Shown here: positions 1 through 20,070 of the stretch, in pieces
How positions within the stretch are numbered: the first letter of the stretch is position 1
Layout of the letters: every line of letters starts with the position of its first letter
Translations under genes and position numbers: made by a program
Virus record (IMG/VR): IMGVR_UViG_3300008258_000463
Coordinates: 1-30,649 of that record
From: a virus
Length of the DNA stretch: 30,649 nucleotides
Reading direction: 5' to 3' (one strand)
The notes under the pieces: model-generated
The model's database searches: none
What the model saw: only the letters and a program-made list of their open reading frames with translations
What the model was told of the DNA's origin: nothing

Positions 1-30
1 AAGTTTGGGGGGACTAACCCAAGAAAGGGC

Positions 31-360
31 ACTTATTGTACTTTGTACCATAACTCGTTTTTATGGGTCTATTTGCCCTACTTATTGTACTTTATACCAT
101 AACTAATTGAGCTCACTTATTGTACTTTTTACCATAAGTAAAGAAGGGACTTATTGTACTTTTTACAATAACTAAATGATGAGATGACTTATTGTACTTT
201 ATACAATAACTAATTCAATCTTGTGTGTGTGCGTGTGCGTGTGCGTGTGCGTATGCGTGTGCGCGTGTGCGTATGCGTGTGCGCGTGTGTGCGTGTGCGC
301 GTAGGGGTGCAGGACTTATTGTACTTTGTACCATAAGTACTTATTGTACTTTGTACAAAA
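31..360. repeat. Array of seven 25-bp dyad repeats
   Basis: Near-identical units starting acttattgtac lie at 31-55, 80-104, 115-139, 149-173, 187-211, 314-338 and 339-360 (the last truncated). Each unit has dyad symmetry: a left arm TTATTGTA and a right arm TACaATAA or TACcATAA around a 3-5 base T-rich centre. The arms vary but keep the symmetry; copies four and five are perfect 8-bp inverted repeats. Copies one to five start 34-49 bp apart, and copies six and seven abut. No gene is supported here. The layout suits a set of operators for a dimeric protein or replication iterons; the sequence does not decide between them. Confidence 0.85.
222..303. repeat. 82-bp perfect alternating purine/pyrimidine tract
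   Basis: Every base from 222 to 303 alternates pyrimidine and purine without exception. It is mostly GT and GC dinucleotides, with two AT steps near 252-254 and 272-274. It sits between dyad repeats five and six. Such tracts are known to favour left-handed Z-DNA under negative supercoiling. Open frames across it are low-complexity Cys/Ala/Arg or Thr/His strings and are not credible genes. Confidence 0.9.
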
Positions 361-1209: not shown

Positions 1210-2829
1210 ATGACTGAGAACTTAGGTTACTCTCCGAAGGATATCCGTTTCGGGGATGATGGGCGAGCGAGGCTCATTAGTGGAATCACAAAAATCGCAG
1301 GTGCTGTCAAGAGCACTTTAGGCCCGAGGGGCAACACTGTGCTGATCGAGTCAGCTAATCATACGAGTGGTATTACTGTAACGAAGGATGGTGTAACTGT
1401 CGCGAAGGCTGTTGACTTGATCGATCCGGTCGAGAACTTAGCTGTAAGGATGATGAAGGAGGCTGCCGACAAGACTGCTACGAATGCGGGTGACGGTACG
1501 ACTACTGCCATTGTGTTGACTGAGGCTTTGGTCAAGGCGGGTGATGAGCTCATCACTGAGGACTTAAACCGCATTCAGGTGCTACGCCACATGGTGGAGA
1601 TATCTGATGAGGTCGTGGAGAGTTTAAAGAAGAAGAAGAAGAAGGTCAATAAGAAGATGCTCAATGACGTGGCGACAATCTCGGCGAACAATGACAAGCA
1701 CATTGGTGGGATCATCTCACGGGTGTACAATGCGATTGGCACCAATGGGATCGTGACGGTTGAGAAGTCTCACACGAACGACACATATGCTGAGAGCACT
1801 CATGGCTTCAAGGTACAGCGTGGGTATTACTCACCGTACTTCATCAATGACCACAAGCGTGACGAGTGTGTGTTCGAGGACGTGATGGTCTTGGTGTGTG
1901 ATGCTGAGATACATAATATTTTGCAGTTGGAGAATGTGCTCAAGCCAATCATTCAGGAGGGCAAGCGCCTATTAATTATTGCGCCGTGTGCTGCACCTGT
2001 CATCAATACACTAGCCGCTAACGTGGCAAAGGGTAACTTGAAGGTATGTGCTATTGAGCCGCCTAGCTTTGGGTACAAGAAGCACGAGCTGATGGGTGAT
2101 ATTGCCTTGGCGGTGGGTGCGAAGTATTTCAGTGAGAAGACCGGTGATGATTTGAGTCTGATGACATACGCTGACTTGGGTCATGCGGCCAAAATTATTG
2201 TGGACTCGCAGAACACTGTGATCATTAACTCACCTACTAAGACTGACGAGGATGAGGTGGCCAATCGTGTGGAGCAGCTATGGGCTGCGCATGCTGAGGC
2301 GACCAAGAAGCACGACAAGGACTTTATTCTGTCGCGCATTGCATCGCTCACAGGTGGCGTTGGTGTTATCTTTGTGGGTGGTACGACTGACATTGAGCAG
2401 AAGGAGCTATACGACAGGGTGGATGATGCTGTGTCGGCGGTTCGCTCTGCCTTGGAGGAGGGTGTGCTACCGGGTGGTGGCAAGGCCTTGCTTGAGTCTG
2501 CCCTTTCAATGGAGAATTCTCTTTCTGATACTGCTGAGCTACACGTGGCCTTTGAGATTATGTGCAGGGCTTTAAAGACACCTGTCAAGCAAATATTGGC
2601 AAATGCGGGTCTAAAGTTTGAGGATATCTATAAGTTTGGTGATGGCCATGTCGTGGAGGGCTATGGGTACAACGTGAAGACGGGTGAGTACGGTGACCTT
2701 GTGCAGATGGGTGTCATTGACCCGTTCAAGGTGACTCGCTCAGCACTACAGAACGCTGTGAGTGTGGCTACAACAATTTTATCAACTGACGCCATTATCA
2801 CAATGGCGCGAACATATGACGCAAGATGA
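1210..2829 (+). CDS. groEL: Phage-encoded chaperonin GroEL (Hsp60)
   Basis: A 539-residue group I chaperonin that would form the ATP-driven folding chamber in the host cytoplasm. Visible landmarks are the ATP-site motifs TKDGVTVAK (Asp60, equivalent to E. coli Asp52) and GDGTTT (94-99), the catalytic Asp406 (equivalent to Asp398) in RVDDAV, and GGG 422-424. The apical RGYYSPYF (204-211) keeps the Tyr/Tyr/Phe pocket that binds GroES and substrate. The C-terminus ends at about residue 539 without the usual Gly-Gly-Met tail. A run of six Lys (140-145, six AAG codons at 1627-1644) replaces a region that is not so basic in E. coli. The frame extends to a TTG at 1204, but ATG 1210 fits the promoter spacing. 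It overlaps groES by four bases (ATGA). One hand-counted line is about 52% GC, well above the structural genes. Confidence 0.96.
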   Translation: MTENLGYSPKDIRFGDDGRARLISGITKIAGAVKSTLGPRGNTVLIESANHTSGITVTKDGVTVAKAVDLIDPVENLAVRMMKEAADKTATNAGDGTTTAIVLTEALVKAGDELITEDLNRIQVLRHMVEISDEVVESLKKKKKKVNKKMLNDVATISANNDKHIGGIISRVYNAIGTNGIVTVEKSHTNDTYAESTHGFKVQRGYYSPYFINDHKRDECVFEDVMVLVCDAEIHNILQLENVLKPIIQEGKRLLIIAPCAAPVINTLAANVAKGNLKVCAIEPPSFGYKKHELMGDIALAVGAKYFSEKTGDDLSLMTYADLGHAAKIIVDSQNTVIINSPTKTDEDEVANRVEQLWAAHAEATKKHDKDFILSRIASLTGGVGVIFVGGTTDIEQKELYDRVDDAVSAVRSALEEGVLPGGGKALLESALSMENSLSDTAELHVAFEIMCRALKTPVKQILANAGLKFEDIYKFGDGHVVEGYGYNVKTGEYGDLVQMGVIDPFKVTRSALQNAVSVATTILSTDAIITMARTYDAR

Positions 2830-3083
2830 TCGCTATCGGCAAAAATATTATCATTGAGACATTAGAGAAGGAGGTCAAGACTGAGTCGGGCCTCCTCTTA
2901 AGTGCGCATGACGCGAATGACTTCAGATATAAGATCGGCAAGGTTGTAGTGGCGGGCACTGATGTGTCTGCCATAAAGTCGGGTGATGAGATTTACTACG
3001 ACAAAAATAACTCATATACCATGGTCATCAACGACCGACCGTACACCATCATTCAGGAGCGTGACGTTGTTGTTGTCGTATAG
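2826..3083 (+). CDS. groES: Phage-encoded co-chaperonin GroES (Hsp10)
   Basis: An 85-residue protein of GroES family length that caps the GroEL chamber. The mobile loop is recognisable at residues about 17-27 (KTESGLLLS), with the hydrophobic tripeptide LLL where bacterial proteins have IVL. The later segments (IKSGDEIYYDK, then a terminal region ending in IIQERDVVVVV) match the GroES barrel strands (VKVGDIVIF, then the ESDILAIV end). It starts inside the groEL stop codon, so translation is coupled, and the gene order groEL-groES is the reverse of the usual bacterial groES-groEL. Its last 35 bases overlap the end of the convergent minus-strand gene. Identification rests on motif order and context; the sequence is diverged. 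Confidence 0.88.
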   Translation: MIAIGKNIIIETLEKEVKTESGLLLSAHDANDFRYKIGKVVVAGTDVSAIKSGDEIYYDKNNSYTMVINDRPYTIIQERDVVVVV

Positions 3084-3492
3084 AGTCGTTTAGCTTTAGA
3101 ATAGCGCCTTTCATCACAGCATCGCGGTATCGCTTGTTATTTTTGATCATGAGCGGGTTGTTGACGTAAGACTCAGCGATGAGTTGTTCACCATTTAGAT
3201 ATTTATAGATTAGCGTCACAAGATGCTTAGCTTTGAAGGAGAGTTTGTATAAGGCTCTCCTTTTTGTATGTGGGTCAGTCTTACGGAATGACTCAAGCCA
3301 TCCCTCTTTGAGCATTCGCTTGAAGCGCTTCGAGTCCCATCCAACTAGGCGGGTGAAGTCATCAAACTTATCTTTATTGAAGTACGCCTCTGAGTATAGA
3401 AACAATATCATATCAAGATCAGCTTGGTTTAGGCCATACTTTATCTTGACATATTGGCGTATGACCTTCCAATACTTTAGGTAGTCATCCAT
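3049..3492 (-). CDS. Putative winged-helix (MarR-like) DNA-binding protein
   Basis: A 147-residue basic protein and the only credible minus-strand gene in the window. Residues about 20-95 read like a winged helix: a helix (GLNQADLDMILFLYSE), a putative helix-turn-helix (FDDFTRLVGWDSKRFKRMLKEG), then a wing-like segment (KRRALYKLSFKAK) with a C-terminal helix. This resembles MarR/PadR-type regulators, but I cannot assign a family by eye. It converges on groES with a 35-base overlap, so transcripts would collide or act as antisense. A TAACTTTG box on the minus strand (plus coordinates 3519-3526) lies 26 bases before the start. It could be the repressor of the palindrome at 1163-1193 or of the 31-360 repeats; this is untested. 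Sampled GC is about 55%, higher than the downstream genes. Confidence 0.7.
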   Translation of the reverse strand: MDDYLKYWKVIRQYVKIKYGLNQADLDMILFLYSEAYFNKDKFDDFTRLVGWDSKRFKRMLKEGWLESFRKTDPHTKRRALYKLSFKAKHLVTLIYKYLNGEQLIAESYVNNPLMIKNNKRYRDAVMKGAILKLNDSIRQQQRHAPE

Positions 3493-3545: not shown

Positions 3546-3947
3546 ATGGATTATAATAGCAGCTCTTTTCGCAACGGAGCAATTGACAGATTAAAAGGTA
3601 AGTTCGGAAAAGGACAAACAGAGAAACCTGTGACTGTTCGCCCATCAGCTGAGCAAGTAGCTCGCGTAAAAGGACGCATGGAGTCTGACATCAACAAGAT
3701 GGACGCTGAAATTAAGGGTTATGAATACACAACTCCTAAGTCGAAAACAGGTTTAGCTTGTTCACTGAGAAATGAAGGTTTATGCAAAGATAGTAAAGAG
3801 GCATATAGGGAGGTTGTTACTGAAGATGCGATGAAGGGTAATAAAGATAAATTTGTTGGAAAGAACATCCAATCAACTAGGTCTGCCTATCAAGGAGCAA
3901 AGAAAGCTCATTCGTATGCTAAATCTCAATATGAAAAGTATCTATAA
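3546..3947 (+). CDS. Basic phage protein with N-terminal DYNSxxFRN tag, unknown function
   Basis: A 133-residue, Lys-rich, soluble protein. Its first 23 residues (pattern DYNSxxFRNxxIDxxxxKFxxG) match the start of the protein at 4486-5046, although the rest of the two proteins differ. The remainder has an internal pair of Cys in ACSLRNEGLC and a Tyr/Lys-rich tail. No catalytic motif is seen. It begins a run of six genes linked by ATGA or TAATG overlaps or gaps of a few bases, so it is probably co-expressed with them. The shared N-terminus may be a targeting or packaging tag. A virion or DNA-associated role is inferred only from context. Confidence 0.75.
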   Translation: MDYNSSSFRNGAIDRLKGKFGKGQTEKPVTVRPSAEQVARVKGRMESDINKMDAEIKGYEYTTPKSKTGLACSLRNEGLCKDSKEAYREVVTEDAMKGNKDKFVGKNIQSTRSAYQGAKKAHSYAKSQYEKYL

Positions 3948-4192
3948 TGGCTGAAAAACCTACTTCACCATTGTATTCAGAGAAGACCGCGGCTTTAAAT
4001 AACACGCTCTCTGCGCTTAATATCAAGAACGCGCAGGCAATGAAGCTTTTGGATGAGAAATACGCTGTTAAAAACGATGTTGGACGCAAAAAGCGCAATA
4101 TTGCAGCGGCTTACGCGGAGCGCGGCCTCGCACAGCTCGGCAGTTCCGTCGGCATGAAGATGCCTCAAGGGTACCAACGACCAAGAAAATAA
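3947..4192 (+). CDS. Small basic protein, unknown function
   Basis: An 81-residue protein, Lys/Arg/Ala-rich with no Cys. Residues about 12-60 are probably helical (many Ala, Leu, Asn, Lys). The C-terminus (QGYQRPRK) is strongly basic. The start codon overlaps the stop of the preceding gene (TAATG), which suggests translational coupling. No family is recognised. Its position between two other small basic phage proteins makes a DNA-binding or virion-associated role possible but unproven. Confidence 0.65.
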   Translation: MAEKPTSPLYSEKTAALNNTLSALNIKNAQAMKLLDEKYAVKNDVGRKKRNIAAAYAERGLAQLGSSVGMKMPQGYQRPRK

Positions 4193-4195
4193 GAC

Positions 4196-4486
4196 ATGGC
4201 TGATAAGAGCAAAATGAAGTGCAACTCCCCACGTCCTTCTGACCGCGCAGGTAAGAAGATGATGGTTAAGGCATGCTCAGGAGGCACTGAGAAGCTACTG
4301 CATTTTGGGGCGAAGGGCTATGGCCACAACTATAGCGCTGCTGCACGTAAGAGCTTTAAAGCACGCCATAGTTGTGACACTGCCAATGACAAATTAACAC
4401 CAAGATATTGGGCTTGTAAGAAGCTTTGGGCAGGTAAGGGAGGAAGCACTCAATCATCACCATCAACACGTAGAGGAAAGTACTAA
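4196..4486 (+). CDS. Conserved small basic Cys-containing phage protein
   Basis: A 96-residue protein. The pattern is an N-terminal KMKCNSPRPS, then KACSGGTEKLLHFGAKGYG, KSFKARH and YWACKKLWAGKGG. From memory this matches a widespread small phage family with the signature KSFKARH...YWAxKxxW (I believe Pfam DUF6321), common in marine and freshwater phages; the exact family name should be checked. Cys residues at about 9, 28, 60 and 74 could bind a metal. It follows the previous gene by three bases and overlaps the next by one (TAATG). The molecular role is unknown; a virion-associated or DNA-associated role is plausible. Confidence 0.75.
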   Translation: MADKSKMKCNSPRPSDRAGKKMMVKACSGGTEKLLHFGAKGYGHNYSAAARKSFKARHSCDTANDKLTPRYWACKKLWAGKGGSTQSSPSTRRGKY

Positions 4487-5046
4487 TGGCAACAGATTAC
4501 AATAGCATTAATTTCAGAAACTCATCTATTGATAAGATGAGTACTAAATTTAGTAATGGTGACCCTGTAAATAAAGGAAGAGAAGCTATTTCTAAAGCTC
4601 CTTCAGACAAGAAAGAGTTGATTACAAAGAATAGAGCTAATGCTGCAAGAGATATGCGCAAAGATGTCACCCCTTTAAAAAATGAGGACGGTTCTACGTC
4701 TACTCACGTAATGGCAAGCGGTGAAGGAGGCTCAGGAAAATATAAGTACACTGTTAATCCAACTGTTTTCCCTAATGAAGGTGGTAAAACATGGACTGAT
4801 TTGAGAAATGATCCACGAGGCGCATACGATGAAGCATCTAAACGTGGTGAAGTTATTGGATTTAAGTCTGAGAAACGTGCTGAAAAATTTGGTATGGGAT
4901 CTTGGAAAAAAGGACAGGCAGGTCGTGAAGCAAATCAGATGTATCGTGATGCAAAGAAAAACAATGAATTGTATACTCAATCTGTCGGCGCTCAAAAAAG
5001 AGGTAAGGACGAAAAGATAAAAAAAGTTTTATCAAATAAAAAATGA
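4486..5046 (+). CDS. Phage protein with N-terminal DYNSxxFRN tag and virion-type appended domain
   Basis: A 186-residue hydrophilic protein. Residues 4-25 repeat the N-terminal pattern of the gene at 3546-3947. Residues about 73-145 (HVMASGEGGSGKYKYTVNPT, then WTDLRNDPRGAYDEASKRGE, then a segment ending in GSWKK) resemble a small domain often appended to phage structural proteins, with the order 'GK..v.PT / AY..a...G....F.s...A..f..g.w'. That resemblance is from memory. The C-terminus is very Lys-rich. It is coupled to its neighbours by TAATG upstream and ATGA downstream. It is probably a minor virion or virion-assembly protein; no enzyme motif is seen. Confidence 0.7.
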   Translation: MATDYNSINFRNSSIDKMSTKFSNGDPVNKGREAISKAPSDKKELITKNRANAARDMRKDVTPLKNEDGSTSTHVMASGEGGSGKYKYTVNPTVFPNEGGKTWTDLRNDPRGAYDEASKRGEVIGFKSEKRAEKFGMGSWKKGQAGREANQMYRDAKKNNELYTQSVGAQKRGKDEKIKKVLSNKK

Positions 5047-5387
5047 AAGACGCTTGCTATAAGAAAGTAAAGGCATCTTATGATGTGTTCCCCTCAGCTC
5101 GAGCTTCGCAGGCTATTGCTAAGTGCCGTAAGGCATCAGGAAACGTAAAGAAGACTGAGAAGGGAGCTAGTCTTAAGAGATGGGAGAAGGAGAAGTGGAC
5201 TGATACGCGCACGGGTAAGGCCTGTGGTGCGGGTGGTAAGAACGAGTACTGTCGACCATCAAAAAGAGTGTCTTCAAAGACACCTATAACAAAGAGTGAA
5301 ATGAGTCCATCCAAGCTTGCGGCCAAGAAGGCTGAGAAGTCAAGGGTTGGTATGGGCAGTAGAGTAAGTAACGTCAAAAAGAGATGA
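5043..5387 (+). CDS. Cys/Lys-rich phage protein (DUF5872-like)
   Basis: A 114-residue basic protein. The N-terminal motif ACYKKVKASYDVFPSARAS followed by AIAKCRK is a signature I recall from many phage small proteins. The middle GASLKRWEKEKW, TRTGKACGAG, YCRPSKRV resembles DUF5872, a domain shared by phages and some large eukaryotic DNA viruses. Both assignments are from memory. Cys residues in CY, KC, ACG and YC could bind zinc. The C-terminus (SPSKLAAKKAEKSRVGMGSR) is a basic tail. ATGA overlaps occur at both ends. The role is unknown; a packaged DNA-binding role is possible. Confidence 0.75.
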   Translation: MKDACYKKVKASYDVFPSARASQAIAKCRKASGNVKKTEKGASLKRWEKEKWTDTRTGKACGAGGKNEYCRPSKRVSSKTPITKSEMSPSKLAAKKAEKSRVGMGSRVSNVKKR

Positions 5388-11778: not shown

Positions 11779-12006
11779 ATGGAAATCAGGAAGATATCGG
11801 TTGGCCCGGACTACAAGGGTGGAGCGATGCATTACATTGTTGGTCAGAAAGTACTAGGTGAGACTCAAGAGATTCATCTTATTAAGTATGATGACCATAA
11901 GCAATCAATTAAGATTTATATTGCCAATGATAAGAATGAGATTGTAATTTGGAAAGAGTTCAACAATACCATTCCTGTAGCCATTGAGTACAATATAAAT
12001 ATCTAA
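11779..12006 (+). CDS. Small conserved phage protein, unknown function
   Basis: A 75-residue protein, mostly beta by composition: MEIRKISVGPDYKGGAMHYI, VLGETQEIHLIKYDD, IKIYIANDKNEIVIWKEF, ending VAIEYNINI. I recall similar short proteins near terminase genes of Bacteroidota phages but know no function. It starts directly after the stop of the fibre candidate, and its stop overlaps the next start (TAATG), so it is translated with the following protein. Confidence 0.7.
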   Translation: MEIRKISVGPDYKGGAMHYIVGQKVLGETQEIHLIKYDDHKQSIKIYIANDKNEIVIWKEFNNTIPVAIEYNINI

Positions 12007-12569
12007 TGCAATCACCGTTCTACTTTATCACAAAACCAATTAGCGGAAAGAGATACAACAACACCAAAGAGATTGGTGGTATCGACCTTATTATAAGCAC
12101 CTCAGAGGAAGACCACAGGTTCTCAAACAGAGAGGCTGAGGTTATTGAGGTACCCGTAGATTATAGTGGTCCAATTAAGATTGGAGACAAACTATTGGTT
12201 CATCACAACGTATTCAAGTTTTATAACGATATGAAGGGTCGCCGTAAGAGCGGTAAGAGCTTCTTCAAGGAAGATATATTCCTGATTGATGACGAACAGT
12301 TCTTTATGTATCAAAACGATACAGGATGGCATGCATACGATAGGTACTGTTTTGTTCAGCCTATCAAGCCTGAAGCTTCATTTATATATAAGCCGATTGA
12401 AGAGGAGCCGTTGATTGGCATTATGAGATACCCCAACAAGGCTCTTATAGATGCGGGAATAAAGGCAGGTGATAAGGTCTGTTTTAAGCCTGATAGCGAG
12501 TATGAGTTTATTGTAGATGATGAGAAGCTATACCGGATGTATGACCATCAAATAACAATTAAGTTATGA
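12006..12569 (+). CDS. Phage protein with possible tandem GroES-like folds
   Basis: A 187-residue protein of unknown role. Two segments read like GroES-type barrels. The first is EAEVIEVPVDY, then GPIKIGDKLLVHHN, ending FKEDIFLID. The second is LIGIMRYPNK, then AGIKAGDKVCFKPDSEYEFI, then LYRMYDHQITIKL. Each has the order 'G.V...(I/V)K.GD.V.F...E..I....L..M...(D/Q)I' seen in GroES, including the true groES of this window (IKSGDEIYYDK). The similarity is weak and by eye, so the fold is inference. It lacks an obvious mobile loop, so it may be a structural descendant rather than a lid. It is coupled to both neighbours by overlapping start/stop codons, directly upstream of the packaging genes. Confidence 0.55.
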   Translation: MQSPFYFITKPISGKRYNNTKEIGGIDLIISTSEEDHRFSNREAEVIEVPVDYSGPIKIGDKLLVHHNVFKFYNDMKGRRKSGKSFFKEDIFLIDDEQFFMYQNDTGWHAYDRYCFVQPIKPEASFIYKPIEEEPLIGIMRYPNKALIDAGIKAGDKVCFKPDSEYEFIVDDEKLYRMYDHQITIKL

Positions 12570-12850
12570 GTCGGGAGAAAGATTTAAGACTCAATATTAT
12601 TGAGGCGGGATATAGGGCTGTTGAGCAACTTATTAAGGTTGCTAAGGAAGATATCATTAAGCCTGACCCTGAGGATGATTTATCTGCGGATAAATTAAAA
12701 AATGCTGCAGCATCAAAACGATTGGCTATATTTGATGCATTCGAAATTCTAAATAAAATTGAAGCTGAGAAAGCTACGCTAGAGGAGGTAAAAGATGATT
12801 CACCAAAGCTCGATACAAAACAGGGATTTGCCGAACGAAGAGCTAAATAA
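12566..12850 (+). CDS. Small helical protein, candidate small terminase subunit
   Basis: A 94-residue, mainly helical protein: residues about 5-32 (IIEAGYRAVEQLIKVAKEDI) and about 44-75 (KLKNAAASKRLAIFDAFEI) look like two long helices, and the C-terminus is charged. It lies directly before the TerL gene and overlaps it by 56 bases in another frame. Position and size suit a small terminase subunit, but I see no convincing helix-turn-helix, so the name rests on context. It starts at an ATGA overlap with the preceding gene. Confidence 0.5.
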   Translation: MSREKDLRLNIIEAGYRAVEQLIKVAKEDIIKPDPEDDLSADKLKNAAASKRLAIFDAFEILNKIEAEKATLEEVKDDSPKLDTKQGFAERRAK

Positions 12851-15056
12851 GCTTTATCGTGTAGTAAAAGACCATATCCCCAAAAGGGTTAAAGATCAAA
12901 AGAATCGAAACCATAGTTGGCAGTATGGCTACAACGATCAATATGACGTTGTAATATTATCAAAGACAGGAAGATTAGGTGATATATACAATATCAATGG
13001 ATTGCATATAGCACTTCCTGAATCTCCTGCAAAATGCACAAGTAGAAGCTCAAAATCATCAGAACAGTATTGGGAGCGTGTTGATATACCAAAGCAACTA
13101 GGTCGCATTCAGTCAATCTTTCAGTGGCATGAGATGCCTAAAGATTTTAAGGCGCAATATATTGACTACATAGAACAAGAGTTTGATAGAAGAGAGCAGG
13201 GGCATTGGTTTATGAATAATGGAACCCCAACATACATGACAGGTTCTCATTACATGTATCTTCAGTGGTCTAAGATTGACATAGGATATGCTGACTTTCG
13301 TGAGGCAAACAGAATTTTCTTTATTTATTGGGAGGCGTGCAAGGCTGACTACAGGTCATTCGGCATGGTTTACCTAAAGATTCGCCGTTCAGGTTTTTCT
13401 TTTATGTCATCATCAGAATGTGTGAATATTGCAACTCTTGCAAAAGATGCAAGGGTTGGTATCTTGTCAAAAACAGGTTCCGATGCCAAGAAAATGTTCA
13501 CCGATAAGGTTGTGCCTATCAACAGTAACCTACCTTTCTTCTTCAAGCCGGTAATGGATGGTATGGACAAGCCAAAGACAGAGCTTGCCTATCGCGTCCC
13601 TGCTTCCAAAATTACCAAAAAGAATATGCATGAGATTGATGAGGATGGTGTAGATGGCCTTGATACAACAATAGATTGGAAGAACACAGATGAGAACTCT
13701 TACGATGGTGAGAAGTTGTTATTCTTGGCGCATGATGAAAGTGCTAAATGGACAAAGCCAAATAATATCCTAAACAATTGGCGAGTAACCAAGACGTGTT
13801 TGCGTTTGGGTTCTAAGATTATTGGTAAGTGTATGATGGGTTCAACGTCCAATGCCTTAAGTAAAGGTGGTCAGAATTACAAAGATTTGTATGAGGATTC
13901 AAAGCCATCTACACGTAATGCAAATGGTCAGACTAAGTCGGGGCTGTATGGCATGTTTATCCCAATGGAGTGGAATATGGAGGGTTTTATTGATCTTTAT
14001 GGTATGCCTGTACTTCGTAAACCAAGCAATCCTATTAAGGGGGTTGATGGTAATATGATTGTCAATGGCGCTATTGATTATTGGGAGGCAGAGGTTGACT
14101 CATTAAAGAATGACCCTGATGCATTGAATGAATTTTACCGTCAGTTTCCAAGAACAGAGTCGCACGCATTTAGAGATGAAAGCAAGGCTGCTCTATTTAA
14201 CTTGACTAAGTTATATCAGCAGATTGACTTTAACGATACATTGATTAAAGAGCATCACTATACTAGAGGTTCATTTAGTTGGAAGGATGGCATCAAAGAT
14301 ACGCAGGTTATATTTACTCCTGATCGAAGGGGGAGGTTCTTAATTGCTTGGGCTCCTGCAAAGCATTTGCAAAACCAAGTACACACAAAGAATGGTATTA
14401 AATATCCCGGTAATGATCATATGGGGGCATTTGGATGTGACTCCTATGATATCTCAGGAGTTGTTGTAGGGCGTGGTTCAAATGGTGCGCTACATGGTCT
14501 AACTAAATACCATATGGACGAAGGTCCTGTTAACCAATTTTTTTTGGAATACATTGCTCGTCCGCAGACAGCAGAGATATTCTTTGAAGAGGTACTAATG
14601 GCATGTGTATTTTACGGTATGCCAATATTGATTGAGAACAACAAACCACGATTGCTGTATCATTTTAAGAACAGAGGGTATCGCGGATTCTGTATTAACA
14701 GACCGGATAAAGTTTATGCTAAATTATCTAAGACAGAGCGTGAACTAGGCGGTATACCAAACTCATCTGAGGATGTCAAGCAGGCGCACGCAGCTGCGAT
14801 TGAATCTTACATAGAGAAGTACATAGGTGTTCAGGAAGATGGGGAAATGGGCTTCATGCCATTCAATAAAACATTAGAGGATTGGGCTAAATTTGACATT
14901 AGCGATCGTACAATGTTTGATGCTACAATTAGCTCAGGATTGGCTATTATGGCTTGTCAGAAGCACTTATATCAACCCGAGGTAAAAGAGTCAAAAATAA
15001 GCATTAAATTTGCTAGATATAATAATAAAGGGAATATTAGCTCCTTAGATACATGA
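12795..15056 (+). CDS. Terminase large subunit (TerL)
   Basis: A 753-residue DNA-packaging motor that pumps DNA into the procapsid and cuts it. ATPase part: an atypical Walker A at KIRRSGFSF (195-203), Walker B with catalytic acid at LLFLAHDE (308-315), and a coupling-type motif MMGSTS (347-352). Nuclease part (RNase H fold, about 500-725): Asp549 in GCDSYD, Glu614 in PILIEN and Asp704/Asp709 in SDRTMFD. The Walker A lacks the usual GK(S/T). The length is larger than many TerLs because of an N-terminal region of about 150 residues. The ATG at 12795 overlaps the previous gene by 56 bases; a TTG near 12828 is a possible later start. It overlaps the portal gene (ATGA). Confidence 0.92.
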   Translation: MIHQSSIQNRDLPNEELNKLYRVVKDHIPKRVKDQKNRNHSWQYGYNDQYDVVILSKTGRLGDIYNINGLHIALPESPAKCTSRSSKSSEQYWERVDIPKQLGRIQSIFQWHEMPKDFKAQYIDYIEQEFDRREQGHWFMNNGTPTYMTGSHYMYLQWSKIDIGYADFREANRIFFIYWEACKADYRSFGMVYLKIRRSGFSFMSSSECVNIATLAKDARVGILSKTGSDAKKMFTDKVVPINSNLPFFFKPVMDGMDKPKTELAYRVPASKITKKNMHEIDEDGVDGLDTTIDWKNTDENSYDGEKLLFLAHDESAKWTKPNNILNNWRVTKTCLRLGSKIIGKCMMGSTSNALSKGGQNYKDLYEDSKPSTRNANGQTKSGLYGMFIPMEWNMEGFIDLYGMPVLRKPSNPIKGVDGNMIVNGAIDYWEAEVDSLKNDPDALNEFYRQFPRTESHAFRDESKAALFNLTKLYQQIDFNDTLIKEHHYTRGSFSWKDGIKDTQVIFTPDRRGRFLIAWAPAKHLQNQVHTKNGIKYPGNDHMGAFGCDSYDISGVVVGRGSNGALHGLTKYHMDEGPVNQFFLEYIARPQTAEIFFEEVLMACVFYGMPILIENNKPRLLYHFKNRGYRGFCINRPDKVYAKLSKTERELGGIPNSSEDVKQAHAAAIESYIEKYIGVQEDGEMGFMPFNKTLEDWAKFDISDRTMFDATISSGLAIMACQKHLYQPEVKESKISIKFARYNNKGNISSLDT

Positions 15057-17488
15057 AAGACGTAAAAATTAACATATCCTCAACATCATTTCCGAGTCAA
15101 TTCGCAACTGATGCAGAGAAAGAAACCGCTGAATTTGGTATCCAAGTTGGACAAGCCATACAGTACGAGTGGTTTAGAAAGGATGGTAATCAATGTAGAT
15201 ACTACAGTCAATGGCGTGACTTTCACCGCCTTCGTTTATATGCGCGTGGTGAGCAGCCTATTCAAAAATATAAGGATGAGCTTGCTGTTGATGGTGATTT
15301 GTCTTACATCAACCTTGATTGGACACCTGTTCCAATCATTCCTAAGTTTGTTGACATTGTTGTCAATGGAATGTCAGACCGTCTATTTAAGGTTAAGGCA
15401 TATGCTCAAGATGGAATGTCTCAGGCAAAGAGAAACAAGTATCAAGATATGATTGAAAGTCAAATGGTTGCAAAAGACCTTTTGATGAACATACAAGAGC
15501 AGACAGGTGTAGATCCATTTGTGATGAACCCTGATGAGCTTCCAAGCACTGATGAAGAGCTATCATTGTATATGAACCTCAACTACAAACCTGCAATTGA
15601 GATTGCAGAAGAAGAGGCTATCAATACTATACTTGCCGAGAATAGATACGATAACATTCGTAAGCAGTGTGACTATGACTTAATGACTATTGGTATCGCT
15701 GTTGAGAAGCATGAGTTCCTTCCGGGAGCAGGTGTTCAAATCTCATACGTAGACCCCGCAAACATTGTATACAGCTACACTGAAGACCCATACTTTAGAG
15801 ATTGCTTCTATTGGGGTGAAATCAGAACGCTTTCTATAACTGAGCTTTACAAGATTGACCAATCACTCACTCGTGAGGATTTAGAGGAGATTTCAAAATA
15901 TAGCCAAAGTTGGTATGATTACTATAATGTAGCTCAATTTTATGAAAACAATGTTTTTTACCGTGATACGTGTACTCTTTTATACTTTAATTATAAGAGT
16001 ACTAAGAAAATTGTTTACAAGAAGAAAATTCTTGATAATGGAAATACTCGAGTAATTGAGAAGGACGAGAACTTCAATCCTCCTGTGGAAATGATGGAGG
16101 AAGGTCGCTTCGAAAAGATAGAGAAAACAATTGATGTTTGGTATAATGGTATTATGGTTATGGGTACCAACATCTTGCTTAAGTGGGAGATGGCTGAGAA
16201 TATGGTAAGGCCAAAGTCAGCTACTCAGCACGCGCTTCCAAACTATGTAGCGGTTGCACCACGTATGTATAAGGGTGTTATTGAATCAATGGTTCGCAGA
16301 ATGATACCATTTGCTGACCTCATACAATTGACACACTTAAAGCTTCAGCAAGTAATTTCTCGTGTTGTACCTGATGGTGTATTTATAGATGCTGATGGTC
16401 TTAATGAAGTTGACTTGGGTACAGGTGCAGCTTATAACCCTGAGGATGCGCTTAGACTATACTTCCAAACAGGTAGTGTTATTGGTCGTAGCTACACACA
16501 GGACGGAGAATTTAATAATGCTCGTGTTCCAATCCAAGAGTTAAATAGTAACTCAGGCGCTGCTAAGACTCAAATGCTTATTGCAAACTACAATCACTAC
16601 ATGGATATGTTGCGTTCAGTAACAGGTCTTAATGAGGCTAGAGATGGCTCTGACCCTGACCCACGCGCATTGATTGGTGTACAGAAGCTTGCAGCACTTA
16701 ATTCAAACACAGCTACACGTCACATTCTTGAGGGAAGCTTGTATATGTTTAAGTCTATCGCTGAGGCTCTTACATATAGAGTTGCAGATATACTAGAGTA
16801 TGCTGACTTTAGAGATGACTTTGCTAATAAGATTGGCAAATACAATGTATCTATTTTAAATGAAATTAAAGACCTGTACGTATATGACTTCGGAATTTTC
16901 ATCGACATCTCTCCAGACGAAGAAGAGAAAGCACAGCTTGAGCAAAACATTCAAATTGCTCTATCTAAAGGTGATATTAACCTTGAGGATGCAATTGATA
17001 TACGTGAGATTAAAAATCTCAAGTTGGCTAACCAACTCTTAAAACTCAAACGAGTTAAGAAGGAAGAGAAGGAGCAACAGCGTGCAATGCAGGCTCAAGC
17101 TATTCAAGCACAACAGCAAGTTCAAATTCAGCAGATGGCTGCCCAAACTGCTATGCAAAAAATTCAACTTGAGACGCAATCTAAAATGCAAATTAAGCAA
17201 GCTGAGGTGGCTTTTGAAATTGAGAAGATGAAGAATGAGGCTATGCTCAAGCAACAATTAATGCAGACTGAGTTTGATATGCAAATGCAACTTAAGGGTG
17301 TTGAGGTTGAGTCTGTAGACAAAAGAGAAAAGGAAAGAGAAGAAGCTAAAGCTAAGCGTATTAGTCAACAAAACTCAGAGCAATCTAAGTTGATTAATCA
17401 AAGAAAGAACAACCTACCACCAATCAGTTTTGAATCCAATGAGGATTCCCTTGATGGCTTTGACATGGCTGAATTTGAGCCACGTTAA
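15053..17488 (+). CDS. Portal protein
   Basis: An 811-residue protein that would form the dodecameric DNA gate at one capsid vertex. Position directly after TerL and before scaffold and capsid is diagnostic, and the sequence fits: YINLDWTPVPIIPKFVDIVV near residue 90, a crown/stem region (MIPFADLIQLTHLKLQQVIS), and the SVTGLNEARDGSDPDPRA segment near residue 530 that is common in portals of this type. Residues about 660-775 form a long Gln- and Met-rich coiled coil (AQAIQAQQQVQIQQMAAQT and so on), followed by an acidic tail. It starts at ATGA in the TerL stop. The coiled-coil tail may extend into the capsid interior. Confidence 0.9.
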   Translation: MKDVKINISSTSFPSQFATDAEKETAEFGIQVGQAIQYEWFRKDGNQCRYYSQWRDFHRLRLYARGEQPIQKYKDELAVDGDLSYINLDWTPVPIIPKFVDIVVNGMSDRLFKVKAYAQDGMSQAKRNKYQDMIESQMVAKDLLMNIQEQTGVDPFVMNPDELPSTDEELSLYMNLNYKPAIEIAEEEAINTILAENRYDNIRKQCDYDLMTIGIAVEKHEFLPGAGVQISYVDPANIVYSYTEDPYFRDCFYWGEIRTLSITELYKIDQSLTREDLEEISKYSQSWYDYYNVAQFYENNVFYRDTCTLLYFNYKSTKKIVYKKKILDNGNTRVIEKDENFNPPVEMMEEGRFEKIEKTIDVWYNGIMVMGTNILLKWEMAENMVRPKSATQHALPNYVAVAPRMYKGVIESMVRRMIPFADLIQLTHLKLQQVISRVVPDGVFIDADGLNEVDLGTGAAYNPEDALRLYFQTGSVIGRSYTQDGEFNNARVPIQELNSNSGAAKTQMLIANYNHYMDMLRSVTGLNEARDGSDPDPRALIGVQKLAALNSNTATRHILEGSLYMFKSIAEALTYRVADILEYADFRDDFANKIGKYNVSILNEIKDLYVYDFGIFIDISPDEEEKAQLEQNIQIALSKGDINLEDAIDIREIKNLKLANQLLKLKRVKKEEKEQQRAMQAQAIQAQQQVQIQQMAAQTAMQKIQLETQSKMQIKQAEVAFEIEKMKNEAMLKQQLMQTEFDMQMQLKGVEVESVDKREKEREEAKAKRISQQNSEQSKLINQRKNNLPPISFESNEDSLDGFDMAEFEPR

Positions 17489-18633: not shown

Positions 18634-20070
18634 ATGTCTTTAAATCCTACCCCCCCGTATCAGTTGCAGCCGAGTGCTGAGCAGGTACCATTGTCAAGTA
18701 ACTACTTGACAAACTTTAACTTCATGAATCAGTATTTACCTGATACATATGAGAAAGAATTTGAGCGTTACGGAAACCGTACCGTTGCATCTTTCCTTCG
18801 TATGGTAGGTGCTGAGATGCCGTCTATCTCTGACCAAATCAAGTGGGCAGAACAAGGCCGTCTTCACACGAAGTACACTAAAGTTGTTTCTACTGTATTA
18901 ACAGGCGCTAGCAGTGCTGTATTTACAGTTAATGACTTGAACGTATCAGGTATAGCTATTCGTACAGGTCAAACTGTTATGATTACACCAAACGTAGCAG
19001 GTCCTTCACAAAACAAGGGTATTGTTACTGTTGTTGATACTGCCCTTGACCAATTTACAGTTGCTTTCTATGAGACAGCAGGCTTCACTAACGGTTCTGT
19101 AGTTAACGAATTTACTGTATTTGTTTACGGTTCTGAGTTCAAGAAAGGTACTACAGGTATGATTGGTTCATTGGAAGCTGAAGATGAAATCTTCTCTAAC
19201 AGCCCAATCATCATCAAAGATAAGTACGCCGTTTCAGGTTCTGACATGGCTCAGATTGGTTGGATTGAAGTAACTACTGAGAATGGTGCTACAGGATACC
19301 TTTGGTATTTGAAGTCTGAGCACGAGACTCGTCTACGTTTTGAAGACTACTTAGAGACTTCTATGTTGGAGGCTGTTCCTGCTGAGCCGGGTTCAGGTGC
19401 TGCTAACGCAGTTGTTAACCCAACTTATGGTAACAAAGGTTCTGAGGGTGTATTCTACGTAGTAAACTCTCGTGGTAACGTATGGGGAGGTGGTAACCCA
19501 ACTACATTGGGTGACTTCGACACAATCATCTCTCGTCTTGACAAGCAAGGCTCTATCGAAGAGAACGTATTGTTCTTGAATCGTGACTTCAGCTTTGACG
19601 TTGATGACATGTTGGCTTCTCAAAACAGCTACGGTGCATTTGGTACATCTTATGGTTTGTTTGACAACGATAAGGATATGGCCTTGAACCTTGGGTTCAC
19701 AGGTTTCCGCCGTGGTTATGACTTCTACAAGACAGATTGGAAATACCTAAACGACCCAACTATGCGTGGTGGTTTGACCGCATCTGCTACAGGAACTAGT
19801 ACATCTAACGTAATCACAGGTCTTCTTGTACCTGCAGGTTCAACTACTGTATACGACCAAATCCTTGGTAAGAACGCTAAGCGTCCATTCTTACACGTGC
19901 GTTACCGCGCTTCTGAGACTGAAGACCGCCGTTACAAGACTTGGATTACAGGTTCTGCCGGTGGTGCTGCTACAAGCGACCTAGATGCAATGGAAGTAAA
20001 CTTCTTATCTGAGCGTGCTGTATGTACCTTGGGTGCGAATAACTTCGTATTGTTCCGCTACGGAGCATAA
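18634..20070 (+). CDS. Major capsid protein (HK97-fold, crAss-like type)
   Basis: A 478-residue protein that builds the icosahedral shell. The segment ERYGNRTVASFLRMVGAEMP followed by IKWAEQGRLHTKY is a signature I recall from capsid proteins of crAss-like and related Bacteroidota phages. Residues about 85-165 look like a beta-rich inserted domain (VLTGASSAVFTVNDL to FTVFVYGSEFKKGT), a known feature of that group. The spine and axial regions follow (ATGYLWYLKSEHETRLRFED, FLNRDFSFDVDDML), and the last strand is NNFVLFRYGA. The upstream leader is a long A-rich run, which favours initiation in Bacteroidota. Many codons read as if selected for high expression. It is closed by a strong terminator. 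Confidence 0.9.
   Translation: MSLNPTPPYQLQPSAEQVPLSSNYLTNFNFMNQYLPDTYEKEFERYGNRTVASFLRMVGAEMPSISDQIKWAEQGRLHTKYTKVVSTVLTGASSAVFTVNDLNVSGIAIRTGQTVMITPNVAGPSQNKGIVTVVDTALDQFTVAFYETAGFTNGSVVNEFTVFVYGSEFKKGTTGMIGSLEAEDEIFSNSPIIIKDKYAVSGSDMAQIGWIEVTTENGATGYLWYLKSEHETRLRFEDYLETSMLEAVPAEPGSGAANAVVNPTYGNKGSEGVFYVVNSRGNVWGGGNPTTLGDFDTIISRLDKQGSIEENVLFLNRDFSFDVDDMLASQNSYGAFGTSYGLFDNDKDMALNLGFTGFRRGYDFYKTDWKYLNDPTMRGGLTASATGTSTSNVITGLLVPAGSTTVYDQILGKNAKRPFLHVRYRASETEDRRYKTWITGSAGGAATSDLDAMEVNFLSERAVCTLGANNFVLFRYGA

Follow-up and report, generated by a model that had tools for sequence, protein, structure and literature searches.

A groEL-groES operon in reversed gene order in a lineage of freshwater Bacteroidota phages

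Many phages encode GroES only, some encode both GroEL and GroES and few GroEL only, as stated in the part of PMC7185714 that cites Marine et al. 2017. GroEL was found in 36 marine genomes related to phi38:1 (Nishimura 2017; PMC5332604), chaperonin cpn10 is a core gene of the Pervagoviridae (PMC8776804), and GroEL and GroES homologues have been reported in Panino (PMC11590407). Here we analyzed a groEL-groES pair in a 30,649-base virus record (IMGVR_UViG_3300008258_000463), the whole of which we call the window. A preliminary description of this DNA had held that phages rarely carry both genes, a view contradicted by the published pairs and by Callevirus, Immutovirus, Elemovirus and Panino records, which hold both. 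Since published and GenBank phages carry both genes, the window pair belongs to a known kind of phage chaperonin.

Podoviridae sp. ctfjg026 (MW202828) resembles the window in its groEL-groES order, the adjacency of the two genes, the same regulator after groES and a tandem GroES-terminase-portal-capsid module, whereas its GroEL is 62% and its GroES 60% identical and the 4-nt overlap of the window genes is missing there. Elemovirus (phages of Flavobacterium sp. BAL314) also has the two genes adjacent and in the window's order, annotated as groEL-groES in its GenBank records, with a second GroES-like protein upstream of the terminase, but its GroEL is ~37% and its GroES ~30% identical, on a long divergent branch. 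Maribacter phage Panino carries both genes, a capsid protein 54% identical to that of the window and, by profile match, a Cpn10-like ORF after groEL; unlike in the window, a small ORF separates groEL from this ORF, and the annotated GroES is the terminase-adjacent protein. The Callevirus phages (Cellulophaga phi38:1, phi40:1 and Calle) have both genes and a related capsid protein (40%), but in the canonical groES-groEL order with one ORF in between, and their GroEL falls outside the window clade.

With E. coli GroEL-GroES the window pair shares the domain make-up and the ATP site, but its GroEL is without the GGM tail and the inter-ring salt bridges and carries L234E, V263A and V264A, its GroES is shorter and without the roof hairpin, and its gene order is opposite. 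T4 gp31 is also a phage lid without roof loops, an absence thought to aid its folding of the 56-kDa capsid protein gp23 (PMC6318259), but it uses the host GroEL, whereas the window phage carries its own. Human mitochondrial Hsp60 (mtHsp60) of the Hsp60-Hsp10 pair is mainly single-ring and lacks both of the same inter-ring bridges (PMC5575113); the two proteins are not directly akin, and the ring state of the window protein is predicted from sequence. Pseudomonas phage EL gp146, likewise a phage chaperonin of group I-like type, is able to function as single rings, but it is ~27% identical (tblastn), and no GroES was identified in phage EL (PMC7185714).

A chaperonin operon in reversed order

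The source virus is a freshwater phage that infects Bacteroidota and belongs to a podovirus lineage with ~60-67 kb genomes; such a host is in line with the cultured relatives on Flavobacterium, Maribacter and Cellulophaga. The groEL gene (1210-2829, + strand; 539 aa, 58 kDa) gives a full-length Cpn60 match (PF00118, E=1.3e-61, 209 bits against a cut-off of 34.3, residues 29-532) and a match to phrog_5725, chaperonin groEL (4e-136), and its assignment also draws on a tree and a residue table. It starts with the ATG at 1210, and an in-frame TTG at 1204 would give two additional residues. The groES gene (2826-3083, + strand; 85 aa, 9.5 kDa) matches Cpn10 (PF00166, E=5.1e-11, 42.9 bits against a cut-off of 21.1), phrog_3188 (1.4e-12) and, in a PDB profile comparison, Thermus Cpn10 (2.9e-8), and was further assigned by alignments. 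Compared with five relatives, dN/dS was 0.09-0.15 for groEL and 0.08-0.16 for groES. That both are genuine genes is confirmed by Pfam matches above the curated cut-offs and by purifying selection on each; with dN/dS at ~0.08-0.16 and the pair found again in 82/82 related loci, it is not a product of chance. The two genes overlap by 4 nt (ATGA), which suggests translational coupling; the overlap is restricted to a close subclade and one further contig (L076).

Convergent with groES, and overlapping its 3' end by 35 nt, lies a putative regulator of 147 aa (3049-3492, - strand; phrog_17028, 2.7e-10; phrog_12817, transcriptional regulator, 2.6e-6), and a 'repressor protein' occupies the corresponding place after groES in MW202828. 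Positions 3546-5387, which separate the chaperonin operon from the virion genes, contain a series of small Lys/Arg-rich ORFs with no family matches (one was checked, against Pfam and PHROGs). Two of these, of 133 aa and 186 aa, are probably paralogues because they begin alike (MDYNSSSFRNGAIDRL and TDYNSINFRNSSIDKM).

The 5' region of groEL (1100-1209, + strand) contains a terminator-like hairpin followed by a Bacteroidota-type promoter within an inverted repeat. The hairpin, read by eye at ~1120-1160, has the form GGGGTA...TACCCC followed by a T-run, as in an intrinsic terminator; it was not listed by the terminator scan, for which its loop is too long. The promoter reads TTTG, ~20 nt, TAAATTTG. 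TAnnTTTG, the -7 element of Bacteroidota promoters, occurs within 70 nt upstream of groEL in 71/80 family loci against 5 expected from shuffles. For a Bacteroidota host, a scan for E. coli sigma-70 promoters was uninformative. Given the promoter motif and the terminator-like hairpin upstream, groEL-groES looks like a transcription unit of its own in a Bacteroidota host. Below the hairpin, an inverted repeat read by eye at 1166-1196, GTGTCACAA-N13-TTGTGACAC, straddles the promoter; it is a possible operator, with a sequence unlike CIRCE. A decayed form of this repeat was seen only in L004, L005, L008, L009 and L010.

Further upstream, window positions 28-360 contain seven copies of a near-palindrome, TTATTGTACTTTNTACNATAA, spaced 25-127 nt from start to start in an operator- or origin-like arrangement. 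The near-palindrome is also found in L004, L005, L008 and L009, in 4-8 copies ~0.7-1.5 kb upstream of groEL. Within the window array, a long alternating TG/CG tract (222-300) has a Z-DNA-like composition.

A single IMG/VR search yielded 181 relatives, of which 80 (65-91% identical) were kept; together with the window and MW202828 these make up 82 loci. In all 82, a profile search placed groES downstream of groEL and on its strand (gap -4 to ~1.8 kb), whereas among 81 bacterial groEL loci examined a nearby groES was present in 71 and lay upstream every time. The reversed order noted in the preliminary description thus extends to the whole family, and groEL-groES order is also found in the Manatee Spring podovirus MW202828, in Flavobacterium Elemovirus, in Maribacter phage Panino and in at least 80 IMG/VR contigs. 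We found no description of a lineage-wide reversed order in open papers, the scope of our literature search. The members of this lineage have in common a GroEL clade, a downstream groES and a terminase-portal-capsid module, and are podoviruses related to Elemovirus and Panino. Both genes are present in 7/7 window-family records of at least 60 kb (G001, G002, G003, G004, G007, G013 and G025), all found by way of the terminase or of the 187-aa protein described below and so without selecting for GroEL; the records in which the genes are missing are 34-54 kb fragments.

In many loci the interval from groEL to groES has gained small ORFs. In most relatives these include a ~120-aa ORF that by eye resembles MazG; with post-groEL insertions in L025, L027, L029, L033, L046, L047, L064 and L069 the gap behaves as an insertion hotspot. 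In the L176 record (G008:C1:993-2782) groEL and groES are each broken into two reading frames, so these are pseudogenes or sequencing errors.

The best bacterial GroEL identity is ~40%, and the best matches are spread over many phyla. In the tree, the window-family GroELs form one group (support 90/93), and together with the Elemovirus and Panino GroELs they stand apart from all bacteria (98/89, four long-branch phages removed); the exact placement of Elemovirus and Panino is unsure because their branches are very long. Other phage GroELs, among them those of DAC22 and of Vibrio phages, are placed inside bacteria. The phylogeny thus yields one old phage clade and not the recent host copy that the preliminary description had set against its own reading. 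We found nothing to suggest that the phage had captured its groEL-groES operon from a host in recent times, and rejected this origin as highly improbable, with bacterial identity of at most ~40%, a separate, well-supported clade and an opposite gene order. From the tree and the low bacterial identity, we conclude that groEL was acquired long ago and has been inherited with the capsid and terminase genes.

A conserved ATP site, altered surfaces and a roofless lid

The ATPase residues, which the preliminary description had listed as kept, are indeed present: the equivalents of E. coli D52, D87 and D398 are invariant in 82/82 relatives. The whole ATP/Mg-binding and catalytic set (D52, D87, T89-T91, D398, D495) is conserved in the window GroEL, and among the relatives D52, D87, T89, T91, D398 and D495 are kept in 82/82 and T90 in 81/82; by alignment, the residues equivalent to T30, D52, D87, T89, S151, D398 and D495 are invariant (82/82).

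A Gly-Met-rich C-terminal tail is typical of group I chaperonins, although it does not strictly define them. The absence of a Gly-Gly-Met tail from the window GroEL, as first described, is confirmed: its C-terminus (...TMARTYDAR; ...ATTILSTDAIITMARTYDAR) stops near the end of the ordered part of E. coli GroEL, which is why we regard the tail as absent. Such a tail is found in 24/24 bacterial GroELs, but neither the window GroEL nor any other phage GroEL that we read has one, so we rejected the loss as a peculiarity of the window phage. The six-Lys run at residues 140-145 is likewise real, encoded by (AAG)6 at 1627-1644 (+ strand), but nothing supports it as a functional feature. The tract is unconserved outside the closest relatives, and since it is interrupted in L007, L008 and L010 and gone in more distant relatives it looks free to vary; we therefore rejected a functional role.

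The apical RGYYSPYF pocket had been described as retained, and it is present, but the groove as a whole is not conserved. Among the GroES and substrate contacts the window keeps Y199, Y203, F204 and L237, while L259 is Ile, L234 is Glu, and V263 and V264 are Ala. Three of these changes are family-wide (L234E in 80/82, V263A in 81/82 and V264A in 82/82); Tyr at Y203 is found only in the close subclade, with Leu or Met in most relatives. In E. coli, L234, L237 and V264 are lid contacts that meet the GroES tripeptide, and the specificity between chaperonin and lid depends on the mobile loop together with the apical domain (PMC3514286); the window has Glu, Leu and Ala at these positions. Because specificity depends on these two elements, a cognate GroEL-GroES pair would be expected, although V264A and L234E could instead mean that lid binding is lost and not rewired.

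The mobile loop of the GroES reads TESGLLLS and contains a hydrophobic tripeptide (SGLLL), and the SG-[LIM]-x-L pattern is kept across the family alignment. The segment of the roof beta-hairpin, between two core strands, is deleted relative to the Cpn10 of both E. coli and Thermus. One alternative is a holdase of the phage EL gp146 type, which would keep a phage protein from aggregating, or delay its folding, with no encapsulation and no need for a lid. The predicted weakening of the GroES contacts speaks for it, as does the phage EL GroEL, which is active in the absence of GroES and dissociates into single rings when ATP is present (PMC7185714). Against it, groEL is accompanied in 82/82 loci by a groES that keeps its mobile loop and is under purifying selection, which argues that the lid is used, and we consider a holdase quite unlikely.

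The ring interface is altered as well. In the window K105 and A109 are Glu, R452 and E461 are Lys and V464 is Asp, as judged by alignment to E. coli alone, so that compensating contacts are possible. Both inter-ring salt bridges (K105-E434/D435 and R452-E461) are present in 23/24 bacteria, a set chosen for matching the phage query best, against 3/82 family members, and neither is retained in 71/82 family members; position 464 is hydrophobic in 24/24 of the same bacteria against 1/82. A working single-ring system requires a weakened lid interaction, and the lid affinity of mtHsp60 is weaker (PMC5575113). Both signatures, lost bridges and altered lid contacts, are present in the window GroEL, hence the single-ring hypothesis: with both salt bridges and the V464 contact gone, the particle may be labile or consist of a single ring, as in mitochondrial Hsp60. 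The loss of inter-ring contacts, too, was not found described in open papers, to which the literature search extended.

A second GroES-like protein and the probable client

Two genes upstream of the terminase, and missed in the preliminary description, the window encodes a second GroES-like protein of 187 aa (12006-12569, + strand; phrog_13932, co-chaperonin GroES, 3.6e-24). The protein falls below the Pfam Cpn10 cut-off (14.6 bits against 21.1), while its homologues phi40:1 gp089 (28.2 bits) and phi18:3 gp096 (32.6) exceed it over the C-terminal half. When the family profile was compared with bacterial GroES (hhalign), the C-terminal half aligned with 96.6% probability, and the N-terminal half was collinear over residues 7-65 with a GGIDLI loop, a weak match (20%). 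Since both halves align to bacterial GroES and beat 200/200 column shuffles, the protein is probably a tandem GroES, with one GroES domain at the C-terminus and a probable second one at the N-terminus; the two domains could not be aligned to one another. Chloroplast Cpn20 has a comparable layout.

Homologues fill the corresponding terminase-side slot in phi18:3, phi40:1, elemo, Panino and MW202828. In IMG/VR, relatives of the 187-aa protein are encoded on at least 599 stretches; searching there with the GroES-like protein of Panino yielded no relatives. This two-domain protein is kept even in related phages without GroEL: phages of the phi18:3 group carry it beside the terminase (L357 959-1561, phi18:3) and have no detectable GroEL, so it may work with the host GroEL there.

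Downstream of this gene, on the same strand, follow the terminase large subunit (12795-15056; phrog_6681, 1e-173; 87 kDa), the portal protein (15053-17488; phrog_6547; 94 kDa) and a capsid-module virion protein of 478 aa and 52.3 kDa (18634-20070; phrog_13704), whose Calle_1 homologue is annotated as structural/major capsid protein and which, by homology, is the putative major capsid protein. Of the large proteins compared (capsid protein 52 kDa, portal 94, terminase 87 and a 1535-aa protein 168), the capsid protein alone is near the GroEL cage size limit, which the ~56-kDa gp23 of T4 slightly exceeds (PMC6318259). The preliminary description had also named the 1535-residue protein as a possible client, but at 168 kDa it does not fit the cage and is a poor candidate for an encapsulated one.

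The distribution of the pair points the same way. GroEL and a GroES are both present in every phage lineage with a capsid protein 40% or more identical to the window's (MW202828, Panino, Elemovirus, Callevirus), and GroEL is missing from four Cellulophaga phages with a 25% identical capsid protein (phi18:3, phi13:2, phi19:3, phi46:3). That chaperonin presence tracks the capsid protein fits the capsid as client but could reflect shared descent; the correlation comes from few independent lineages. It is plausible that the pair is tuned to fold the phage's own capsid protein, whose 52 kDa fits the GroEL cage, and a dedicated folding pair for this protein is the most likely role.

We also weighed a general-purpose spare chaperonin, serving host and phage proteins alike, with no special client, once the host's own chaperonin can no longer cope or has been switched off. 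Full conservation of the ATP machinery and the mobile loop would suit such a role, as would the operon's own Bacteroidota-type promoter. We nevertheless judge it unlikely: the changes at positions 234, 263 and 264 of the groove run through the whole lineage, suggesting altered and not general binding, and presence follows one capsid-protein clade.

Proposed mechanism and implications

We regard as probable a vertically inherited chaperonin operon in which GroEL and a dedicated GroES lid fold a few late proteins, likely the capsid protein, perhaps as a single ring. A Bacteroidota-type promoter of its own would drive the groEL-groES operon, and ATP binding and hydrolysis would power capture and then GroES-capped folding of one or few phage late proteins, the most likely being the 52-kDa capsid protein. 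The phage GroES without the roof hairpin, like T4 gp31, would leave the dome more open; the altered apical contact residues may bias the phage GroEL toward its cognate GroES and away from that of the host; and the lost inter-ring salt bridges and V464 contact may yield a labile or single-ring particle. A more elaborate, capsid-specific version, a three-part single-ring machine composed of a GroEL without bacterial ring-ring contacts, the roofless GroES and the terminase-side two-domain GroES-like protein, with a partner specificity of its own, is put forward tentatively, as a possible but doubtful extension.

Complete phage chaperonin pairs are not rare; in the abundant lineage of freshwater Bacteroidota phages studied here they seem to form a core operon. 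Should the ring and lid changes have the meaning proposed, the window pair would be a natural single-ring GroEL with a cognate lid, which would bear on why most bacterial chaperonins keep two rings and would help to identify the phage protein that requires its own folding cage. The cultured relatives Elemovirus, Panino and Callevirus make the pair directly testable.
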